Virus record (IMG/VR): IMGVR_UViG_3300017763_000189
Span: 1 to 23,918 of that record
Origin: a virus
DNA length: 23,918 nt
Direction: 5' to 3' (one strand)
The position numbers were made by a program, and so were the translations under genes. The notes beneath the pieces are model-generated. The model worked only from the letters and a program-made list of their open reading frames with translations, did no database searches and was not told the DNA's origin. Positions 4,094 through 22,104 of this stretch are shown here, piece by piece (position 1 is the first letter of the stretch; each line of letters starts with the position of its first letter).

Positions 4094-6442
4094 TTATTGT
4101 GTAATTTTGTCTGTATTTGATTTGGCCTCATTAATTGACTTTTGTAGTAGTGTGTTTGCTTGTTGTAATTCTAAAATCATACGTTCATAATAGTTTTTAG
4201 TTGGATCTTGGTTTGGATCACCTTGGCCTGTCATTGGCAAATATTGACGCATAATTCTCATTTTAGCGTCAGCTATTTTTCCACCGTCCATATTATTTGT
4301 AAGTGTTGCACCATTATTATCAGGAACTGCATTTGCCATATCTGATCCTGATGCTACTGTTGTTCCTGCTAATTCAGAAACTTTATTGGTATTAAACGTA
4401 GCAATATTTTTATTCATTTCTAATAACTGTTTATAAACAATTGCTTCCATATCAGTACCTTTTACTTTTTGAAGTACTGCTTGAATTACGTCTTCTGTAA
4501 CAGTTTCTCCTGATGAAAACGAACCTCCCATAAATGTTTTACCAAGATCATCAAAGTCTCCTGTGATTGATTTTAAGGCGGCAACATTTTCTTTTGACAT
4601 TCCTTGAGTTAACGTAGCCATTACTGATCTATCAGCTCCGCCTTTAAGAAGAGAACCAAACCCTTGCGATTTCATAAAGTCATTGCTTATTCCAACGTCA
4701 CCAACCTTATTAGGATCATATTTTCCTTCTTTGATCATTTTTTGAATAATATATTGTGACTTAACTGCTTCTGTTCTATTGGCTTCAGCTTCTTTCATAT
4801 CTGAATTGCCAGGTAATCCAAGTTTTAAGCCTTTTGTAATTGCACCTACAATCATATCAGACATTAATCCAAAGACACCACTTAATGCTCTGGCAATAGA
4901 AGCACCAAATCCTATTCCTTCAAATCCTTCAATCCATCTTAATAATCTTGCAACCATGTTACCAACTGCATCACCTATTTTTCCTGCATTCTGTAAAATG
5001 AAATCTGAGAAACGAAGTACTGCACTTGTTGCCTTAATCATAATATTTTCAAATAAGTCTAAAACTTTATTATTACCAAACAGGCTAACAAAAAACTTAT
5101 CAAAAACAAGTTTAATTTTTTGTGTTGCAATTTCTAAATTTGTAAATGCTCTTGTTGTATCATCTGGTTTTTGAGCATCTCTCATTTTTTCCATATTTTT
5201 AATTGCGGCAATTTGCTCATCTTCTAATTGTTGTGCTTGGTTAATTAAACCAATCATACGTCTTGCACCATCGGCATATTGAGTATTAGAACGTTCTAGT
5301 ATCATTAAACGTTCACGTTCTTGATCTGTTGTATTTGCTAATATGTCTAGCATATTACTAAATTTAGCACCTGCTTCATTTGGACCAACTGTATTAGTTA
5401 AATCACTCATTGCATGATACAATGGTTGACTTACTGCTAATAGTTCTCTACCTACTTCTGTGAAGTATAACCCACCTCGTCCAACTGCTGTTGTAAATGC
5501 ACTTGCTAATTGGTTACCATAATCATTTCCTAATGCCGCAAATCCACCTGTAACAATTTGTGCTGTTTGTAACATTTGCTCACGTAATTGTTCTGGTGCT
5601 TGATTTAATGCATTTGTAAATGCGGCTACTGTAATAGATGATTTAATTATTTGTGATATCTGTTCCCTTGAAACATTTAGTAACGTAGATAGTGCAGAAA
5701 TATTTTTTAAATATGTTTCTGTATTTGATGCCAGTGCTTGTCTATCTGATTCTTCTAATATACCTAATAATCTTCTTTGATCTAAATAGTCAGCTGTATA
5801 CTCAGTTAGTTCCCCTAGGTTCATACCAAGTAGTCCAACTTCTTTTAAGTTATCCCTCATTGCAACATTTAAATCTGAAAATGCTCTTGTTCCAAGTACA
5901 CCAACTGTTGTAGAATATCTACCTAATATTTCAGTATACTGATCCAAACTCATTTCAGCTCTAACTGCCGCTTTGGCTAATCCTATTGATCCTTGATCAA
6001 ATCTGAAACCTGTAGCAAACAATACTCTGAACTGATCACTAAATGCTTTGAATCTTCCAACTATACCACCAATAACAAATCCAAATGCACCTAACGCCGC
6101 TCCCGCTATACCTAATTTTCCTGCAAACTTTTGTATTCCAGTATTGAATGCTTTGAACGGTGTTTTAGGTATTAGTTTATCTGCTGAAAATTTATTAAAT
6201 GCTTCTGTTTGTTTACCAGCGGCTTGTCTCATTGATTTAAAGCCTTTTTCTAGTATTGTTGTAGTATCTTTATTTGCTTTGGCTTCGGTTTTTCCTTTTT
6301 TCTTATCGTCCTCGCCTTGCTTTTTAAGTTCTTTTAAATTGGCCCCTAACTGTTTAGCAATTTCAGCCTGAGTTGATTCAGTTGCCCATTTTGGAAGGTC
6401 TGAATTCCAATTTATTTGATCAATAATTACGTTATCTGCCAT
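4094..6442 (-). CDS. Tail tape measure protein, 782 aa
   Basis: This is a long, mostly helical protein. Residues 40-65 form a charged Lys-rich coil. A hydrophobic Gly/Ala segment near residues 106-131 (AGKLGIAGAALGAFGFVIGG) resembles the membrane-inserting segment of tape measures. A second Gly-rich, hydrophobic region lies near 500-545, and helical repeats fill the centre. T4 gp29 is about 590 residues, so this would be a longer tail-length determinant. It lies head-to-head with a gp26-type chaperone gene, as expected for tape measure and its chaperone. A GATAAATA late promoter lies upstream. The tape measure role is inferred from composition, size and neighbours; a gp29 homologue cannot be proved by eye. 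Confidence 0.7.
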   Translation of the reverse strand: MADNVIIDQINWNSDLPKWATESTQAEIAKQLGANLKELKKQGEDDKKKGKTEAKANKDTTTILEKGFKSMRQAAGKQTEAFNKFSADKLIPKTPFKAFNTGIQKFAGKLGIAGAALGAFGFVIGGIVGRFKAFSDQFRVLFATGFRFDQGSIGLAKAAVRAEMSLDQYTEILGRYSTTVGVLGTRAFSDLNVAMRDNLKEVGLLGMNLGELTEYTADYLDQRRLLGILEESDRQALASNTETYLKNISALSTLLNVSREQISQIIKSSITVAAFTNALNQAPEQLREQMLQTAQIVTGGFAALGNDYGNQLASAFTTAVGRGGLYFTEVGRELLAVSQPLYHAMSDLTNTVGPNEAGAKFSNMLDILANTTDQERERLMILERSNTQYADGARRMIGLINQAQQLEDEQIAAIKNMEKMRDAQKPDDTTRAFTNLEIATQKIKLVFDKFFVSLFGNNKVLDLFENIMIKATSAVLRFSDFILQNAGKIGDAVGNMVARLLRWIEGFEGIGFGASIARALSGVFGLMSDMIVGAITKGLKLGLPGNSDMKEAEANRTEAVKSQYIIQKMIKEGKYDPNKVGDVGISNDFMKSQGFGSLLKGGADRSVMATLTQGMSKENVAALKSITGDFDDLGKTFMGGSFSSGETVTEDVIQAVLQKVKGTDMEAIVYKQLLEMNKNIATFNTNKVSELAGTTVASGSDMANAVPDNNGATLTNNMDGGKIADAKMRIMRQYLPMTGQGDPNQDPTKNYYERMILELQQANTLLQKSINEAKSNTDKITQ

Positions 6443-6536: not shown

Positions 6537-7385
6537 ATGACAACTGAAAGTAAATTATCAAAATATTATAGAGCCCCGAAGCTATATGTTAAAATACCAA
6601 GCCAAGGTGCTTTTAATACTGATATGGAACAGTCAATGAGTGGTGAATTAGCTATAATGGCTATGACTGGACGTGATGAAGTTCTAACTAAAAATCCAGA
6701 TGCACTATTAAATGGTGAAGCTGTGGTTTCAATTATTAAAAGTTGTGTCCCAGGAATTAAAGATCCTTCTTTACTTCCAATCACAGATACAGATACTCTT
6801 TTAATAGCTATTAGAATTGCTTCAAGCGGAGACGAACACGAAATCAGTGCCAAATGTCCAAAATGTAAAACAGATAATAGAGTTACAGTTAATATGCGTA
6901 ATATATTATCATCAGCTAAACTATTAGAATCAACTTATAGTGTTAGATTAGATACAGGTATTACTGTGTTTATTAGACCATACACGTATGCTATGCAAAC
7001 TGAAGCGGCATTGGCGGCATTTGACGAAACTAAAACTTTACAGAATTTAGCAAAAGAAGGTGCAGAAGTTACTGCTTCAGCTATGTCTGTATATAATAAA
7101 AGTTTTAACAAAATGGCTGATATGAGTGTACAACTTCTTGCAAGAAGTATTATAAAAATTGTTACTCCAGACGGTGATCAAGAAAGTGATCCAAATGAAA
7201 TTTTAACATTCTTACAAAACATTGATTCAAAAGCGGCAAAACAAATTGATGAAAAGTTATCTGAAATTAATGCTTTGAACGTTGAGAAAAAAGTTGAATT
7301 AGAATGTCAAAATGAATCTTGCAAAAATAACTGGGTTACAGAACTAGATATCAATCCAACGGATTTTTTCGTCGCTGGCTCTTAA
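6537..7385 (+). CDS. gp26: gp26-like baseplate hub/tape-measure chaperone, 282 aa (0-frame product)
   Basis: This resembles the T4 gp26 family (Pfam T4_baseplate): an N-terminal YRAPKLYVKIPSQG segment, a helical core, and two Cys pairs (C107-x2-C110 in CPKC and C257-x4-C262) that may bind zinc. T4 gp26 (about 208 residues) is needed for hub assembly and is not, or only weakly, retained in the virion. The start has AGGA about nine bases before the ATG and two late promoters upstream. The gene is divergent from the tape measure. Near its 3' end, at 7364-7370, is a T-TTT-TTC slippery heptamer followed by a hairpin, so part of the ribosomes may shift to -1 and make a 354-residue product. Confidence 0.82.
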   Translation: MTTESKLSKYYRAPKLYVKIPSQGAFNTDMEQSMSGELAIMAMTGRDEVLTKNPDALLNGEAVVSIIKSCVPGIKDPSLLPITDTDTLLIAIRIASSGDEHEISAKCPKCKTDNRVTVNMRNILSSAKLLESTYSVRLDTGITVFIRPYTYAMQTEAALAAFDETKTLQNLAKEGAEVTASAMSVYNKSFNKMADMSVQLLARSIIKIVTPDGDQESDPNEILTFLQNIDSKAAKQIDEKLSEINALNVEKKVELECQNESCKNNWVTELDINPTDFFVAGS

Positions 7386-7396
7386 AGGCTGAGCCA
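7364..7396 (+). promoter_or_regulatory. Candidate programmed -1 frameshift signal
   Basis: In the gp26 frame the codons GAT-TTT-TTC give the X-XXY-YYZ heptamer T-TTT-TTC at 7364-7370. Five bases later begins a stem TGGCTC (7376-7381) pairing with GAGCCA (7391-7396) around a 9-base loop that contains the 0-frame stop. Slip, spacer and stem are in the usual range for bacterial and phage -1 frameshifting. The -1 frame is closed by a stop at 7328-7330, just upstream, and stays open to 7600. Structure is seen; activity is inferred. Confidence 0.65.
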
Positions 7397-7600
7397 CAGG
7401 AAATAAACGCCTACTTTGAAGGACTGACAAAAGAGACCTCTGCTATACAAAAACAAATTACAGAAATTTGTTGGTATATGCGTGGATCAATAACATGGGA
7501 ACAAGCATGGGAGCTTTCTGATGTAGATCGTAACGACATTATTAAATATGTTGGCGAAAACGCAGAACGTTTTAAAAAGTCTGGACAGGTAGTTGTTTAA
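7370..7600 (+). CDS. -1 frame C-terminal extension of the gp26-like chaperone, 76 codons
   Basis: After a slip at 7370 the -1 frame runs 76 codons to TAA at 7598-7600. It reads like a real helical domain: QEINAYFEGLTKETSAIQKQ, then CWYMRGSITWEQAWELSDVD and IIKYVGENAERFKKSG. The only ATG in the frame, at 7478, has no clear ribosome-binding site and would drop the first 36 residues, so independent initiation looks poor. Its TAA shares the bases TTAA with the stop of the convergent nuclease gene, the same packing seen at the gp5/lipoprotein junction. The fused product would be 354 residues, by analogy with the lambda gpG/gpGT tail chaperones. A separate gp51-like protein is the alternative. Confidence 0.65.
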   Translation, partial: RRWLLKAEPQEINAYFEGLTKETSAIQKQITEICWYMRGSITWEQAWELSDVDRNDIIKYVGENAERFKKSGQVVV

Positions 7601-8094
7601 TTGGATTGCTGTTTAACAGCATCAGAATTTAATTTCCAAAAATCTTTATATTCAATATAGTGGAACTCTTTATACTCTTTAGTGTGTTTTAAATTGTTCC
7701 ATTGTTTTGGATCCCAAAGAACAAATTCACCTTGTCTTGAAATCTTAACACACAACAACCACTTATCATGTTCTTCACATGACTCTTGTGATTGTGCAAT
7801 AAAACTATCTAATAGTTTTACTTCTTTTCCTAATGCAAGATTATGCCATTGTAGTTCGCCATAATTCTTTGCTTCAATAACCAACAAAGGAAATGAGTCA
7901 GGTGGAATAATATCTCCTTTAAAACCTCTTGTTTGATTTTCAGAAAGTTTTTCTGTTCGTACAATATTTTTTCCACCAACAAATGCACCACTATAAGGTA
8001 CCCTTGTAAATGACTCTTGATATAATTCAGAAAGGAAGTTTGCTACTTCTCTTTCATATGTCTTACCTTTGTTTTTTGATTTTGATCCGCTCAA
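7597..8094 (-). CDS. PD-(D/E)XK nuclease, Holliday-junction-resolvase-like, 165 aa
   Basis: The protein shows the order of acidic residues typical of Hjc-like/restriction-fold nucleases: E14 in the N-terminal helix (KGKTYEREVANFL), a basic FTRVPYSGA strand, D61 in GFKGDI, and E74-A-K76 in LVIEAKNY. A likely role is cutting branched DNA during recombination-dependent replication, alongside gp46/gp47, in place of T4 endonuclease VII, which is not seen here. The start is a TTG at 8094, two bases after the stop of the previous gene, with GAGGAG about ten bases upstream; no upstream ATG fits. Nuclease fold is fairly secure; the exact substrate is inferred. Confidence 0.72.
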   Translation of the reverse strand: MSGSKSKNKGKTYEREVANFLSELYQESFTRVPYSGAFVGGKNIVRTEKLSENQTRGFKGDIIPPDSFPLLVIEAKNYGELQWHNLALGKEVKLLDSFIAQSQESCEEHDKWLLCVKISRQGEFVLWDPKQWNNLKHTKEYKEFHYIEYKDFWKLNSDAVKQQSN

Positions 8095-9049: not shown

Positions 9050-10246
9050 TTAATTTTCCTTAGAGAGTTGAGCGTTAGGAGATTTTCTACATTGCGTTTT
9101 GCAAATATTTAAATTAAAAGTATTATCAGTTTTAAGTGTATTACCAATAGACACAAAAGTATTACTAATTAAAACATCGTACAATAAAAAATTTTTAGAT
9201 ATCCTAATATCTTTTTTTTCGTAATAACTCTCATTACTGTTTGCATTAAACAATTCTTCCCATTCTCTAAGATCAGTTAATGCACGATCTCCTCTAAGTT
9301 CAGGAGATTTATAATATTTCCATTTTGAATCCCATATTCTTTCATCATTTTGTGTATAGTAGTATTGATAATGTGCTGTCCAACAACAAGGCCAAACAGT
9401 CATATCACTAACAATTTGTACTTCTTTTTTATATTGCCAAACACACACGTCAGACTTAATATCTTTTTTATTGTTCAGTAAATCAACTACAGAAGTTGTA
9501 GTATACTGTGAATCTGGTATATCTTCTATAAACGTTCTAGTTGGATACTGATTTAATTTTTCTTTATACAACTTTGAATTAGATTTTTTACCTTTATATT
9601 TGGTAACCATCTCTTGCCCCCAAACACCATTATTAAGAACAAAATCAAAATTCCAATCTTCTGCTAACTGTTTGGCTTCTTGTACTTGATGTTTATTATG
9701 ATCAAACGTACACCATCTCCATATTTTACTAACATTGTATTGAGAAAGTACTTTAGCATTTTTAACTATATTTTTCCATATAACATTTCTTCTATATAAA
9801 TGATTAGTGTCTTCTAATCCGTCAACTGAAAAAACAATATAAACTTTTGAATTATTGTTTGACGCATATTCACAAATCTTTTTAAATTTGCGTACCCATG
9901 CTCCTCCGCCATTGGTATGTATTTCTACATTTATATTTGGCCTAGCTTTGAGTATTTCAATTATAATTTTATCAATATCTGGATGCATCATAGCATCACC
10001 TATTTCTCCATTAAACATAACAGTTTCTAACTTTTCTAATCGAGGATCAGCTATTGAATCAATAAAACTTTGTATTTCGTCATTTGTAGTATGTCGTTGA
10101 GTTTTAACAATAAACGGGTGTGTAAGCATTGTGTCATGGTCAGTCCTAGGACACCCTATACAATTAGCATTGCAAAGACTAGTTGGTTCCCATTGAACAA
10201 GTTTAAGTTCTGACGGATGTACATACATATATGTACTTATTTTCAA
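9050..10246 (-). CDS. Radical SAM protein with SPASM/twitch-like C-terminus, 398 aa
   Basis: The N-terminus has the 4Fe-4S signature C25-x3-C29-x2-C32 in SLCNANCIGCPR, followed by TIM-barrel features (MFNGEIGDAMMHPDI, VEIHTNGGGAW, YIVFSVDGLED). A Cys-rich C-terminal part (VCVWQYKKEVQ, then VWPCCWTAH) looks like a SPASM/twitch auxiliary-cluster domain. It should use S-adenosylmethionine to make a radical for an unknown modification. The apparent start is a TTG at 10246 just after the stop of the preceding gene with AGGAT close by; the ATG at residue 7 is an alternative but has no site. It is last in the gp55-gp47-gp46 operon, next to a putative glycosyltransferase. Substrate unknown. Confidence 0.8.
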   Translation of the reverse strand: MKISTYMYVHPSELKLVQWEPTSLCNANCIGCPRTDHDTMLTHPFIVKTQRHTTNDEIQSFIDSIADPRLEKLETVMFNGEIGDAMMHPDIDKIIIEILKARPNINVEIHTNGGGAWVRKFKKICEYASNNNSKVYIVFSVDGLEDTNHLYRRNVIWKNIVKNAKVLSQYNVSKIWRWCTFDHNKHQVQEAKQLAEDWNFDFVLNNGVWGQEMVTKYKGKKSNSKLYKEKLNQYPTRTFIEDIPDSQYTTTSVVDLLNNKKDIKSDVCVWQYKKEVQIVSDMTVWPCCWTAHYQYYYTQNDERIWDSKWKYYKSPELRGDRALTDLREWEELFNANSNESYYEKKDIRISKNFLLYDVLISNTFVSIGNTLKTDNTFNLNICKTQCRKSPNAQLSKEN

Positions 10247-11389
10247 TTATCCTAGTAGTTCTGTAAGTATTTTTACAGAATAATCATATCTTCGTTGTAA
10301 AGTAGTATAATTTTCTTTTGAAATTTTATAAGCATGAATCCAGTCAATAGTATTTGTGTGAATATATTCAACTGTATCAGCAACAAGATTTAAACGTTTT
10401 TCTGTGTCCATTTCATGATCATAGTCTTCGGGCCATAAATCTCTAAATGTATGATATCCAAAATTTTGTAATTGTTTTAAAAATCCAGGTGTACTAGCAA
10501 TAACAAAAGGATGTTTGTTTAGTATTGGTCGTGCTGTTTTTTCTGTTAACAAAAAAGCATTGTTTTCATAATGTGTTTCTGCAACTAAACTGTACTTTGT
10601 TTTTTCGTACAACGTATGATCAAAAGGATATCCTAAATAATGGTCTGAATCTTTTTCATACTTTATATTATCTGGACTATGTGGTATATTACTATAAAAA
10701 TACCCAAACGATTCTGTATCAATTAAATGCTGTACAAGAGGATATAATTCAGTACTAGTATGTGTAGTGTTTAAAGAATAAATTCCATTTTCTAAAACAC
10801 CACGTTGATATAAATTAATAGCTAAATTAATTCTATTTGCTTTGTGTATTTTTGCATTTAAAAATAAAAAATCTTTTTTAACAAAAGTTTTTAATTCATC
10901 ATATGATCTATTAGCAATATCTAAACCTTCTTGATACATACGCCATACTGCATCAGTTTCAAAATGCGGATATGCTATTATTTTTATATTATGTCTAAAT
11001 GTATTTTTTTTAAAACAGGCCTGTGTGTACTCTTGTAAAAAATCTTGTTCTGTTTGACAACCAACAACATACATGATTTGCTCTGCATTACAAACTTTAC
11101 TTTGTACTAACCAATCTATAAACACCGCATGACTTTGAAGTATTTCACTTTCAAAATTTAAACGTTCTCTAATATGACTTATTAAAACTTTTCTTTTTGG
11201 ATTTTTTAATTTAGATAAATTTACAAATTTAAAACTATCGTGTTGATGATACGGTTTATTATGATATGCATTAAATTCTAATATATCAAAATTATCATGC
11301 CCATTGATATAATTTACATGAGCGGCATATCTTCCAGGACTTTCAAACTTGTATGCTAGATCGTTAGGTGCTAACTGTATCGTGCTCAT
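10247..11389 (-). CDS. Putative glycosyltransferase-like protein, 380 aa
   Basis: No confident family, but two stretches look like GT-B/exostosin-like or GT10-like enzymes common in marine phages: KKDFLFLNAKIHKANRINLA near residue 168 and FLLTEKTARPILNKHPFVIA near residue 280, the latter resembling the nucleotide-sugar-binding T-E-K...P-I...P-F-V pattern. The ATG has AAGGAA eight bases upstream and overlaps the end of gp46 by 26 bases; its stop is immediately followed by the radical SAM start, so the two accessory genes form a cassette attached to the recombination operon. It may modify surface sugars or phage DNA or protein. The function is tentative. Confidence 0.5.
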   Translation of the reverse strand: MSTIQLAPNDLAYKFESPGRYAAHVNYINGHDNFDILEFNAYHNKPYHQHDSFKFVNLSKLKNPKRKVLISHIRERLNFESEILQSHAVFIDWLVQSKVCNAEQIMYVVGCQTEQDFLQEYTQACFKKNTFRHNIKIIAYPHFETDAVWRMYQEGLDIANRSYDELKTFVKKDFLFLNAKIHKANRINLAINLYQRGVLENGIYSLNTTHTSTELYPLVQHLIDTESFGYFYSNIPHSPDNIKYEKDSDHYLGYPFDHTLYEKTKYSLVAETHYENNAFLLTEKTARPILNKHPFVIASTPGFLKQLQNFGYHTFRDLWPEDYDHEMDTEKRLNLVADTVEYIHTNTIDWIHAYKISKENYTTLQRRYDYSVKILTELLG

Positions 11390-18894: not shown

Positions 18895-20355
18895 ATGGCA
18901 ACTAAAAAAATACAATCAGTAACAAGCCTTAAAAATTTGCATTCAGATGAGTTAAAAACTTTAGGTCACGTAAAAACATATGACGGTATATATGAAGCCG
19001 TTGTAGTTAATGCAAAAGATATACAAAAAAATGGAAGACTTGTTGTTAGATTAGTTGGCACAAATATAAAAATAACAGATTTACCAGATAGTTATACAAA
19101 AAGTGAATCACACTTAAACTTAACTGTACGTTGGAGTTCTCCATTTGCTGGAGCAACAAACATATCAAACACAATAAAATCAGGTGGAGTAAATCCACAT
19201 TCAGATATAGATCCAGATAAAACTTTTGATGGAGCACAAAGAAGTTATGGTATGTGGATGATTCCACCAGATGTTGGAAACAAAGTATTAGTAATGTTTA
19301 TTGGTGGTGATTTAGCTAAAGGTGTTGTTGTTGGATGTTTATATCAACATTTAATGAATCATATGGTTCCTGGTATTGCTAAAGCAAGAACATTTACATC
19401 TGTAGAATCTGAATTAAAAGAAACTCCTACAGCAGAATATAACAAAGCATCAGATGTTGCTAGTAATGTAGATTATACAAAATCACGTTCAAGTGATGGA
19501 TTAACTCCAACTGATAATGTTAAAAGAGCTGTACATACTTTACATTATAACGGGTTGAAAGAACAAGGTTTAGAAGAAGATAATACTAGAGGACTAACAA
19601 GTTCATCAGCAAGACGTGAATCACCTTCAAAAGTATTTGGAGTATTAACTCCAGATGCAAATCAATTTGTAATGGACGATGGTGATCAACAACTAATTAG
19701 ATTAAGAACTAAATCAGGTGCACAAATATTGTTAGATGAAACTAATGGTAATGTTTATATTATTAATAAAAAAGGATCAGGATATGTTGAAATTGATAAT
19801 GATGGAAAGATTGATGTTTGGGCAAATGATTCGATTAGTGTACGTTCACAAAAAGATATAAATTTAAGAGCAGACAGAGATCTTAATTTTGAATCAGGTA
19901 GACATATTAATATAAAAGCACACAAAACAAGTGATACTGGCCAACCATCAGATACAACAAATACATTAACATCAGTAGATGGAAATTTAAATTTAGATGT
20001 AGAAGGTCAAGTAAGAATTAAAACAGGTGGTTCAACTAAAATTACATCTGGAGCAAGTTTTAATTTATCAACCACAGGATCAAATCATCTTACTGCTTCT
20101 GCAAACACTGAAATTTTAAGTGGTGGCAATCATCATGAAACAGCATCAGCAATACATATGAACGGTCCTGCGGCCGCTGGTGCAAGTAATTATGGTGGAT
20201 TAACTGTTAAAGCAAATGCTAAAGGTATATTGTATTTTACAAATACTCTTTACACAAGAAATAGTGAAGATAAAAGAAATACTGAAAGAGTTGGAACTAT
20301 CCTAACAAGGTTCCCAACTAGAGAACCTTTTGCTAGGCAAGAATATACAGATTAA
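18895..20355 (+). CDS. gp5: Baseplate central spike gp5, without lysozyme domain, 486 aa
   Basis: Residues 20-155 form an OB-fold of the gp5/VgrG kind (GIYEAVVVNAKDIQKNGRLV, WMIPPDVGNKVLVMFIGGD, GVVVGCLYQ). Residues 160-260 are a low-complexity linker. From 262 to about 440 short beta repeats form a spike (VYIINKKGSGYVEIDNDGK, INLRADRDLNFESGRHINIK). The end has the motif PTREPFARQEY. T4 gp5 (575) has a lysozyme between OB-fold and spike; here that space holds no E-D-T-type lysozyme sequence. The start has AAGGAAG eight bases upstream. The stop overlaps the convergent lipoprotein stop. Confidence 0.85.
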   Translation: MATKKIQSVTSLKNLHSDELKTLGHVKTYDGIYEAVVVNAKDIQKNGRLVVRLVGTNIKITDLPDSYTKSESHLNLTVRWSSPFAGATNISNTIKSGGVNPHSDIDPDKTFDGAQRSYGMWMIPPDVGNKVLVMFIGGDLAKGVVVGCLYQHLMNHMVPGIAKARTFTSVESELKETPTAEYNKASDVASNVDYTKSRSSDGLTPTDNVKRAVHTLHYNGLKEQGLEEDNTRGLTSSSARRESPSKVFGVLTPDANQFVMDDGDQQLIRLRTKSGAQILLDETNGNVYIINKKGSGYVEIDNDGKIDVWANDSISVRSQKDINLRADRDLNFESGRHINIKAHKTSDTGQPSDTTNTLTSVDGNLNLDVEGQVRIKTGGSTKITSGASFNLSTTGSNHLTASANTEILSGGNHHETASAIHMNGPAAAGASNYGGLTVKANAKGILYFTNTLYTRNSEDKRNTERVGTILTRFPTREPFARQEYTD

Positions 20356-20927
20356 TTCCAACCAACACCAACTGGTGTCAGCATATATTGACCTTTGTCG
20401 TTAGTAACCTGCATACCATTTTCAATTTTAACTTTAGGGTCTTTCATAAGTTCCCATTTACCTGAAGCTGTTCTACAAGCAACACCTTCACTTTGTTCCA
20501 TTCTTGCACCAATTTGTACTTCTTGGATAAAAGAACGACAAGGTATTTGTCCGTTTTGTATGTAGTAAGTTTCAGTTACCATTACACCACCTCTATGGCC
20601 AGTGTTTGGATTTTCCCAAGTAACAGGGACACCGTCTTTAGCATATTCAAATGCTCTATAGGCAACTTTTTCGTGTTTGATAGTTTCATAATGATCTAAT
20701 TGAGCTCCTACGTTACGTCCCCAATGCGAACCAAGTATTACACCCAAAATAGTTGCGGCATCTTTACCACTTCCACTACCAAATTGATTACCAATTACAC
20801 CACCAATAACAGCACCACCTAATGTGTAAGTGTCTGTTTTAGAAACAGTTTGTCCTGTTGTAGCCGTACAATTAGTTAGAAATATAACAGCAAATAAACT
20901 TGCTATTAGTTTTTTTATTTTATACAT
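20352..20927 (-). CDS. 17-kDa surface-antigen-like lipoprotein, 191 aa
   Basis: The start at 20927 gives a classical lipoprotein signal: KIKK, a hydrophobic stretch and lipobox LTNC with C20. AAGAGG lies six bases before it; the frame extends 12 codons further up but without such a site. A glycine zipper follows (GGAVIGGVIGNQFGSGSG, ILGVILGSHWGRNVG), then a C-terminal domain with CRSFIQEVQIGARMEQ and ACRTASGKWELM, typical of Rickettsia 17-kDa antigen/RT0821-type proteins of alphaproteobacteria. The product is probably an outer-membrane lipoprotein made early in infection, perhaps to change the surface or block superinfection; that role is inferred. Probably acquired from a host. Confidence 0.82.
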   Translation of the reverse strand: MYKIKKLIASLFAVIFLTNCTATTGQTVSKTDTYTLGGAVIGGVIGNQFGSGSGKDAATILGVILGSHWGRNVGAQLDHYETIKHEKVAYRAFEYAKDGVPVTWENPNTGHRGGVMVTETYYIQNGQIPCRSFIQEVQIGARMEQSEGVACRTASGKWELMKDPKVKIENGMQVTNDKGQYMLTPVGVGWN

Positions 20928-20951
20928 TTTATACCTCTTCATATTCTTACT

Positions 20952-20979
20952 ACTATAACACAATATAGAAATCTGTCAA
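20952..20979 (-). promoter_or_regulatory. Sigma70-type promoter of the lipoprotein gene
   Basis: Minus strand: -35 TTGACA (20979-20974), 16-base spacer, -10 TATAGT (20957-20952), about 25 bases before the ATG. Confidence 0.75.
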
Positions 20980-21413: not shown

Positions 21414-22073
21414 CTACTTAATTTTTTTCAAATCAGAACCAGCATTTTTAAATGATGATTGCACTGATTCGCTAACTTTTATTCTAGTAGATAGATATCT
21501 AAGTAGTACTCCATAAGCCGGTAAGAATATAATTAAACCTACTGCGATTTTAATTACAACTTGTGACCCTGCAATTTCTATCCAGTTTGCCGCCATATAC
21601 TCATCAGCTGAGTTGTTGAATGCAACGTAAAAGAATGTGTATGTATCAATAATATTAGCTACAACTGTTGATAATGCTGGTGCTATCCACCATTGAGACA
21701 TTCTTTCTCTTAATACTTGGAATACATATACGTCAAGCATTGTACCTACTGCGTATGCTGTTGCACTTGCAAATCCAATTCTTAATGCTACTGATTGTGG
21801 GGCGCCTTCTGCCAATACAACCAAAATAGATCCTATAATTGCAAATGGATATGCTAATGCAATTGTTGATCTTGCTATGTGTTTTCCTAACAACCTAATA
21901 GTTAAATCAGTTGCTAATATAACTAGCGGAAATGTAAATGCCGCCCATGTAAGTTTAATACCAAGTATCTGTACCGGTATTGCCACAAGAGCATTTGAAA
22001 CTGTAATTACTACAACGTGTAATAACACCAACTTCCAAAGCATACTCTTGTCTATGTTTTTAAAATTAAACAT
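21414..22073 (-). CDS. yhhQ: YhhQ/VUT-family queuosine-precursor transporter, 219 aa
   Basis: An integral membrane protein with about six hydrophobic helices. Stretches typical of the VUT/COG1738 family are seen: FTFPLVILATDLTIRLLGKH, IALAYPFAIIG, GTMLDVYVFQVLRER, WWIAPALSTVVANIIDTYTF. Members import preQ0/preQ1, the deazaguanine precursors used for queuosine in tRNA, and in some phages for deazaguanine DNA modification. The start at 22073 has AAAGGAG seven bases upstream; a start at 22103 would lie within the promoter. It has its own sigma70-type promoter, so it is probably expressed early. No other deazaguanine gene is in this window. Confidence 0.85.
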   Translation of the reverse strand: MFNFKNIDKSMLWKLVLLHVVVITVSNALVAIPVQILGIKLTWAAFTFPLVILATDLTIRLLGKHIARSTIALAYPFAIIGSILVVLAEGAPQSVALRIGFASATAYAVGTMLDVYVFQVLRERMSQWWIAPALSTVVANIIDTYTFFYVAFNNSADEYMAANWIEIAGSQVVIKIAVGLIIFLPAYGVLLRYLSTRIKVSESVQSSFKNAGSDLKKIK

Positions 22074-22104
22074 ACGATTCTCCTTTATATAAAGATTAGT
22101 CATT

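Follow-up and report, generated by a model that had tools for sequence, protein, structure and literature searches.

A T4-like jumbo phage probably makes its tail assembly chaperone in two forms, a short one and a longer one that would arise by a programmed -1 ribosomal frameshift close to the end of the gp26-like gene. We put the probability of this reading, which is based on sequence comparison, at about 0.92. The window, i.e., the whole stretch of DNA analysed here, is a 23.9-kb record (23,918 nt) of one uncultured virus. An earlier note on this DNA had proposed that such a frameshift would yield a long gp26 chaperone, and this is now strongly supported: heptamer, position and frame are conserved in ca. 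100 loci, the extension is under purifying selection in no frame other than -1, and no start codon for it is conserved.

The gp26-like locus and its neighbours

The last codons of the gp26-like open reading frame (ORF) in the window read GAT TTT TTC GTC GCT GGC TCT TAA, and the coordinates and frames (Table 1) confirm that a T TTT TTC heptamer lies in the 0 frame near the gp26 stop, as the earlier note had observed. The -1 extension runs from CGT (7370) through TAA (7598-7600), and conceptual translation of gp26 plus extension gives a fused product of 354 aa with its junction at F278-R279; the 76-codon length, the size of the product and the junction all follow from the reading frames just as described before. 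The TTAA common to the stop codons of the extension and of the convergent nuclease gene is also present (7597-7600). Two details had to be amended. The -1 frame was said to open right at the slip site and does run for 76 codons from there, but it is already open 33 nt ahead of the heptamer, from 7331 on. The extension was also said to be without a usable start; the -1 frame of the window does contain a single start codon, the ATG at 7478, but this lies about halfway along the conserved extension.

Table 1. Features of the gp26-like locus in the window
Feature	Positions	Strand	Remarks
gp26-like tail assembly chaperone, short form (TAC-N)	6537..7385	+	282 aa, ATG to TAA
Slippery heptamer T TTT TTC, 0 frame	7364..7370	+	four codons ahead of the gp26 stop
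-1 frame extension (TAC-C)	7370..7600	+	76 codons plus TAA
Hairpin TGGCTC/GAGCCA around the 0-frame stop	7376..7396	+	present; unsupported as a stimulator
Candidate tape measure protein, 782 aa	4094..6442	-	divergent neighbour of gp26
PDDEXK nuclease/Holliday-junction-resolvase-like gene	7597..8094	-	convergent; PF24608 E 8.8e-23, phrog_244 E 1.9e-17

Profile searches with the product of the divergent neighbour (4094-6442) returned no Pfam or PHROG match. Homologues of this gene adjoin gp26 in many loci, including that of PA5oct, where the gp26 neighbour is annotated as a structural protein detected by mass spectrometry, and the annotation of RaK2 likens the gene at this position to a tape measure. 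Its position and distant homology thus make it a candidate tape measure protein.

Three other genes on the minus strand of the window deserve mention. That at 21414-22103 encodes a Vut_1 family transporter (PF02592, E 6e-24), an unusual phage cargo, which we take to be possibly a queuosine precursor transporter. A radical SAM protein (PF04055) is encoded at 9050-11389 and adjoins a 380-aa protein without a Pfam match, and a glycine-zipper protein resembling a 17-kDa surface antigen is encoded at 20352-20963, next to baseplate genes.

Conservation of the slip site and coding of the extension

The comparison covered 103 gp26 loci: that of the window, 80 from contigs of IMG/VR and 22 from phages that are isolates or references. 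Besides marine contigs, the set includes Rak2-like jumbo phages, Synechococcus phage S-RIM8, Methylophilales phage Melnitz, Aeromonas phage ZPAH1, Delftia phage W-14, the KVP40-like vibriophage VH1 and the Ackermannviridae phage VAP7, and the groups among them are strongly divergent, with extension identities as low as ca. 10%. Alignment of related gp26 loci, which the earlier note had suggested, showed that the heptamer, its position and its frame are conserved, also in distant relatives: an in-frame slippery heptamer leads into an open -1 extension in 102 of the 103 loci, although many of these are related, so that the count does not equal a number of independent events. The heptamer at the gp26 end is T TTT TTC in 94 loci, T TTT TTT in five and A AAT TTT in three. 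The last three (the marine loci L053, L098 and L109) have lost one T, leaving five, and hold the canonical A AAT TTT one codon upstream, from where it leads into the same -1 frame as T TTT TTC does elsewhere. In the alignment of relatives the extension starts in the -1 frame with FF, shortly followed by a conserved L.

As a control we took 182 further ORFs from the same sequences, with a minimum length of 100 aa. A heptamer near the end was found in 15 of these and an open -1 frame in 46, whereas the two never occurred together (0/182); the combination present at 102 of the 103 gp26 loci is, therefore, not due to chance. Nor is TTT-TTC at this single spot forced by codon bias, since elsewhere in these genes Phe is encoded by TTT 853 times and by TTC 353 times.

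The sole locus without a heptamer is that of VAP7, which has GTTTTT instead. In this Ackermannviridae gp26 (L029, 1989-2195) the sequence reads C GTT TTT, with TAATG at the stop, and it resembles the GTTTTT motif of other phage families.

The extension is conserved in relatives by sequence comparison and evolves as a protein solely in the -1 frame. Its pN/pS in the nine closest loci is 0.21 in this frame vs. 1.4 and 1.6 in the other two, which also hold stops across the extension. Such a protein could in principle come from a small gene in its own right, read by reinitiation or from an independent start after the gp26 stop. The records of relatives often annotate the extension in this way, or omit it, and a start codon overlaps the 0-frame stop in 121Q, BF, Phosso and the KVP40-like VH1, among others. 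However, such an overlap occurs in only 11 of 102 loci, so that a restart is not the general route, while the -1 frame of 14 of the 102 loci has no ATG anywhere and that of two has no ATG, GTG or TTG. A separate gene is, therefore, not the general arrangement. In the window itself, translation from ATG 7478 would lose about half of the conserved domain, and in the -1 frame relatives retain the FF and the L located just past the slip site. We consider a separate gene very unlikely.

A shift could also occur during transcription, with the long form arising by slippage of the polymerase on the run of six Ts instead of slippage of the ribosome. The run is indeed a homopolymer and is longer in Melnitz, but polymerase slippage usually needs longer homopolymer runs. 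The three loci with only five Ts still hold the canonical A AAT TTT in the right codon phase, and the exact T TTT TTC in 94 of 103 loci fits tandem Phe codons and not a longer run. Transcriptional slippage seems very unlikely on these grounds. The idea that the window, a single uncultured contig, presents one gene split over two frames by a sequencing or assembly error, or a pseudogene, is refuted by independent genomes, since the same split occurs at the same codon in ca. 100 loci of different genomes, including isolates, and both parts are under purifying selection.

Programmed -1 ribosomal frameshifting, the reading that we prefer, is commonly, but not obligatorily, assisted by a downstream structure or an upstream Shine-Dalgarno-like stimulator. 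The earlier note had pointed to a hairpin behind the heptamer, and a six-pair stem (TGGCTC/GAGCCA at 7376-7381/7391-7396) is present, with a 5-nt spacer and the 0-frame stop in its loop. This hairpin, however, is no better than chance. Its energy in the window is no lower than that of shuffled sequences (z -0.8) and it is common to the closest clade only; in 36 aligned loci the stem pairs are formed in 40% of the cells, about as often as with some slid partners, and neither covariation nor a predicted consensus structure was found at this position. For 84 distinct loci the structure downstream of the slip site has a mean z of -0.65. The hairpin was, therefore, dropped as a conserved stimulator after the single-sequence and 36-locus tests, and any stimulating role for it is unproven. 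In the nine closest loci, synonymous changes are fewer over codons 1-12 counted from the slip site (6/8 invariant vs. 5/33; Fisher p 0.002), which is partly explained by dual coding, as this covers much of the stretch.

It is conceivable, although we advance this only tentatively, that frameshifting is the ancestral and near-universal route to the long chaperone in T4-like phages, including the Rak2-like jumbo phages, and that it needs no conserved RNA stimulator. The context A AAT TTT TTC, which is common among the gp26 loci, might then act as two overlapping heptamers, so that the loss of a T would merely shift the site by one codon.

Relationship to gp26 and gp51 of T4 and to other tail chaperones

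The short form belongs to the gp26/gp51 family: the product of 6537-7385 matches PF12322 (T4_baseplate; E 8.6e-22, 78.3 bits, cut-off 24.5) and phrog_150 (baseplate hub; E 3.7e-26). T4 gp26 and T4 gp51 each match PF12322 as well. Along the 282 positions of phrog_150, T4 gp26 covers 14-235 and T4 gp51 covers 13-280, which indicates that in T4 the short and the long version are encoded by two genes. In an alignment with the fused proteins of cyanophages and KVP40-like phages, T4 gp26 terminates where the FF of the slip site lies, and gp51 runs on into the extension. The two T4 genes lie on opposite strands and no slippery heptamer was found near either junction (gp26 or gp51), whereas the window has one gene and a putative frameshift. 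The family is otherwise shared between the T4-like gp26/gp51 proteins and the gene in the window, as would be the short and long forms.

Direct profile comparison of the window extension with the C-terminus of T4 gp51 gave no significant match (E 0.016, probability 3%). A profile of the fused proteins of cyanophages, KVP40-like and other phages does match T4 gp51, both whole and as its C-terminal piece, although only three sequences were searched, and a profile of the Rak2-like fused proteins gave only weak matches to the single T4 gp26 and gp51 sequences. The link between extension and gp51 is thus drawn through the PHROG and the cyanophage/KVP40 group; position and -1 frame of the extension are the same across all groups compared. 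A weak match to the extension in S-PM2 was discarded, since it sits in a tRNA region and is unrelated to gp26.

AlphaFold2 predicts the short form with a mean pLDDT of 86, matching the predicted structures of T4-like gp26 proteins, and the extension as helical (pLDDT 88). Neither part has a significant Foldseek match among solved structures (for the short form, E > 0.1 throughout). The short form can be superposed on the HK97 tail assembly chaperone 2ob9 (Z 6.1, 102/107 residues, rmsd 5.1), but 2ob9 and YqbN (3klu) stand at Z 6.1-6.4 amid many unrelated chains of similar Z, so that the likeness of the predicted fold to these proteins is suggestive only. The record of phage CBB lists its gp26 homologue (L017, 1501-2358) as a structural protein, an odd label for a chaperone expected to leave the virion.

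Frameshifting is reportedly conserved in several groups of T4-like phages, T4 itself using genes 26 and 51. The earlier note knew of no frameshift described for gp26, a claim that does not hold: Vladimirov, Gautam and Davidson (2022; Virology 566:9-15) reportedly identified the tail assembly chaperone genes of T4-like phages with their short and long products, and poly-T slippery sequences in T4-like TAC-N genes are mentioned, with reference to Vladimirov et al. (2022), in a later paper (PMC12846349). Some T4-like phages have one short and one fused long gene in place of frameshifting, according to PMC10885494, which also refers to that work. Atkins et al. (2016; PMC5009743) describe the G-T frameshift as widely conserved except in T4. 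In lambda, a -1 frameshift near the end of the chaperone gene produces gpGT as a minor long form beside gpG (PMC5009743), as is proposed here for the window, although no sequence similarity was shown between the lambda-type chaperones and that of the window, and the likeness in fold is limited to HK97 2ob9, at a Z (6.1) that unrelated chains also reach. The tail chaperones of the Felix O1-like phages (Andersonviridae) and Vandenendeviridae have an invariant GTTTTT and an open -1 frame (PMC12846349). The open frame is as in the window, but the slip motif differs, being TTTTTTC in the window; VAP7 shares GTTTTT with these families.

Sullivan et al. (2010; PMC3037559) reported that cyanophage gp51 has only ca. 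20% of the full length and is without the first ca. 200 residues. This gene has been annotated as a separate, truncated one, whereas we read the extension in the window as a frameshift product. The short "gp51" ORF of S-RIM8 is the -1 extension of gp26, which explains why it represents the C-terminal end only. Short genes annotated as "baseplate hub assembly catalyst" (gp51) in a cyanophage (L024, 2232-2369) and in Melnitz (L025, 2223-2366) are pieces of the gp26 -1 extension and are apparently mis-annotated.

Two probable chaperone forms and their meaning for T4-like phages

Under the proposed mechanism most ribosomes would stop at 7383 and release the 282-aa short form (TAC-N), while a fraction would move back by one base on T TTT TTC to yield the 354-aa long form (TAC-NC), which would gain a helical C-terminal domain. 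We infer the slippage itself, as well as its efficiency and the division of labour between the forms. If lambda gpG/gpGT is taken as a guide, the short part may coat the tape measure protein, the extension may bring subunits of the tail tube or parts of the hub to that protein, and both forms would leave the finished tail; the same analogy suggests a role in tail length. T4 would make the same pair from two genes, i.e., 26 for the short and 51 for the long form.

The site described here probably represents a deeply conserved programmed -1 frameshift site of a known type, and is well supported by strong comparative evidence. New are the breadth of the survey, the A AAT TTT variants and the finding that conservation of the hairpin is not supported. 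That the site extends to jumbo phages of marine and Rak2-like groups may also be new. The loci provide a broad natural set of slippery sites for testing. The small ORF after gp26 in the records of jumbo phages and cyanophages would encode the latter half of a tail chaperone made by frameshifting, which offers a simple route to correcting records that split off or drop this ORF. Genes 26 and 51 of T4 fit as the two-gene version of one frameshifted gene, as was reportedly proposed in 2022.
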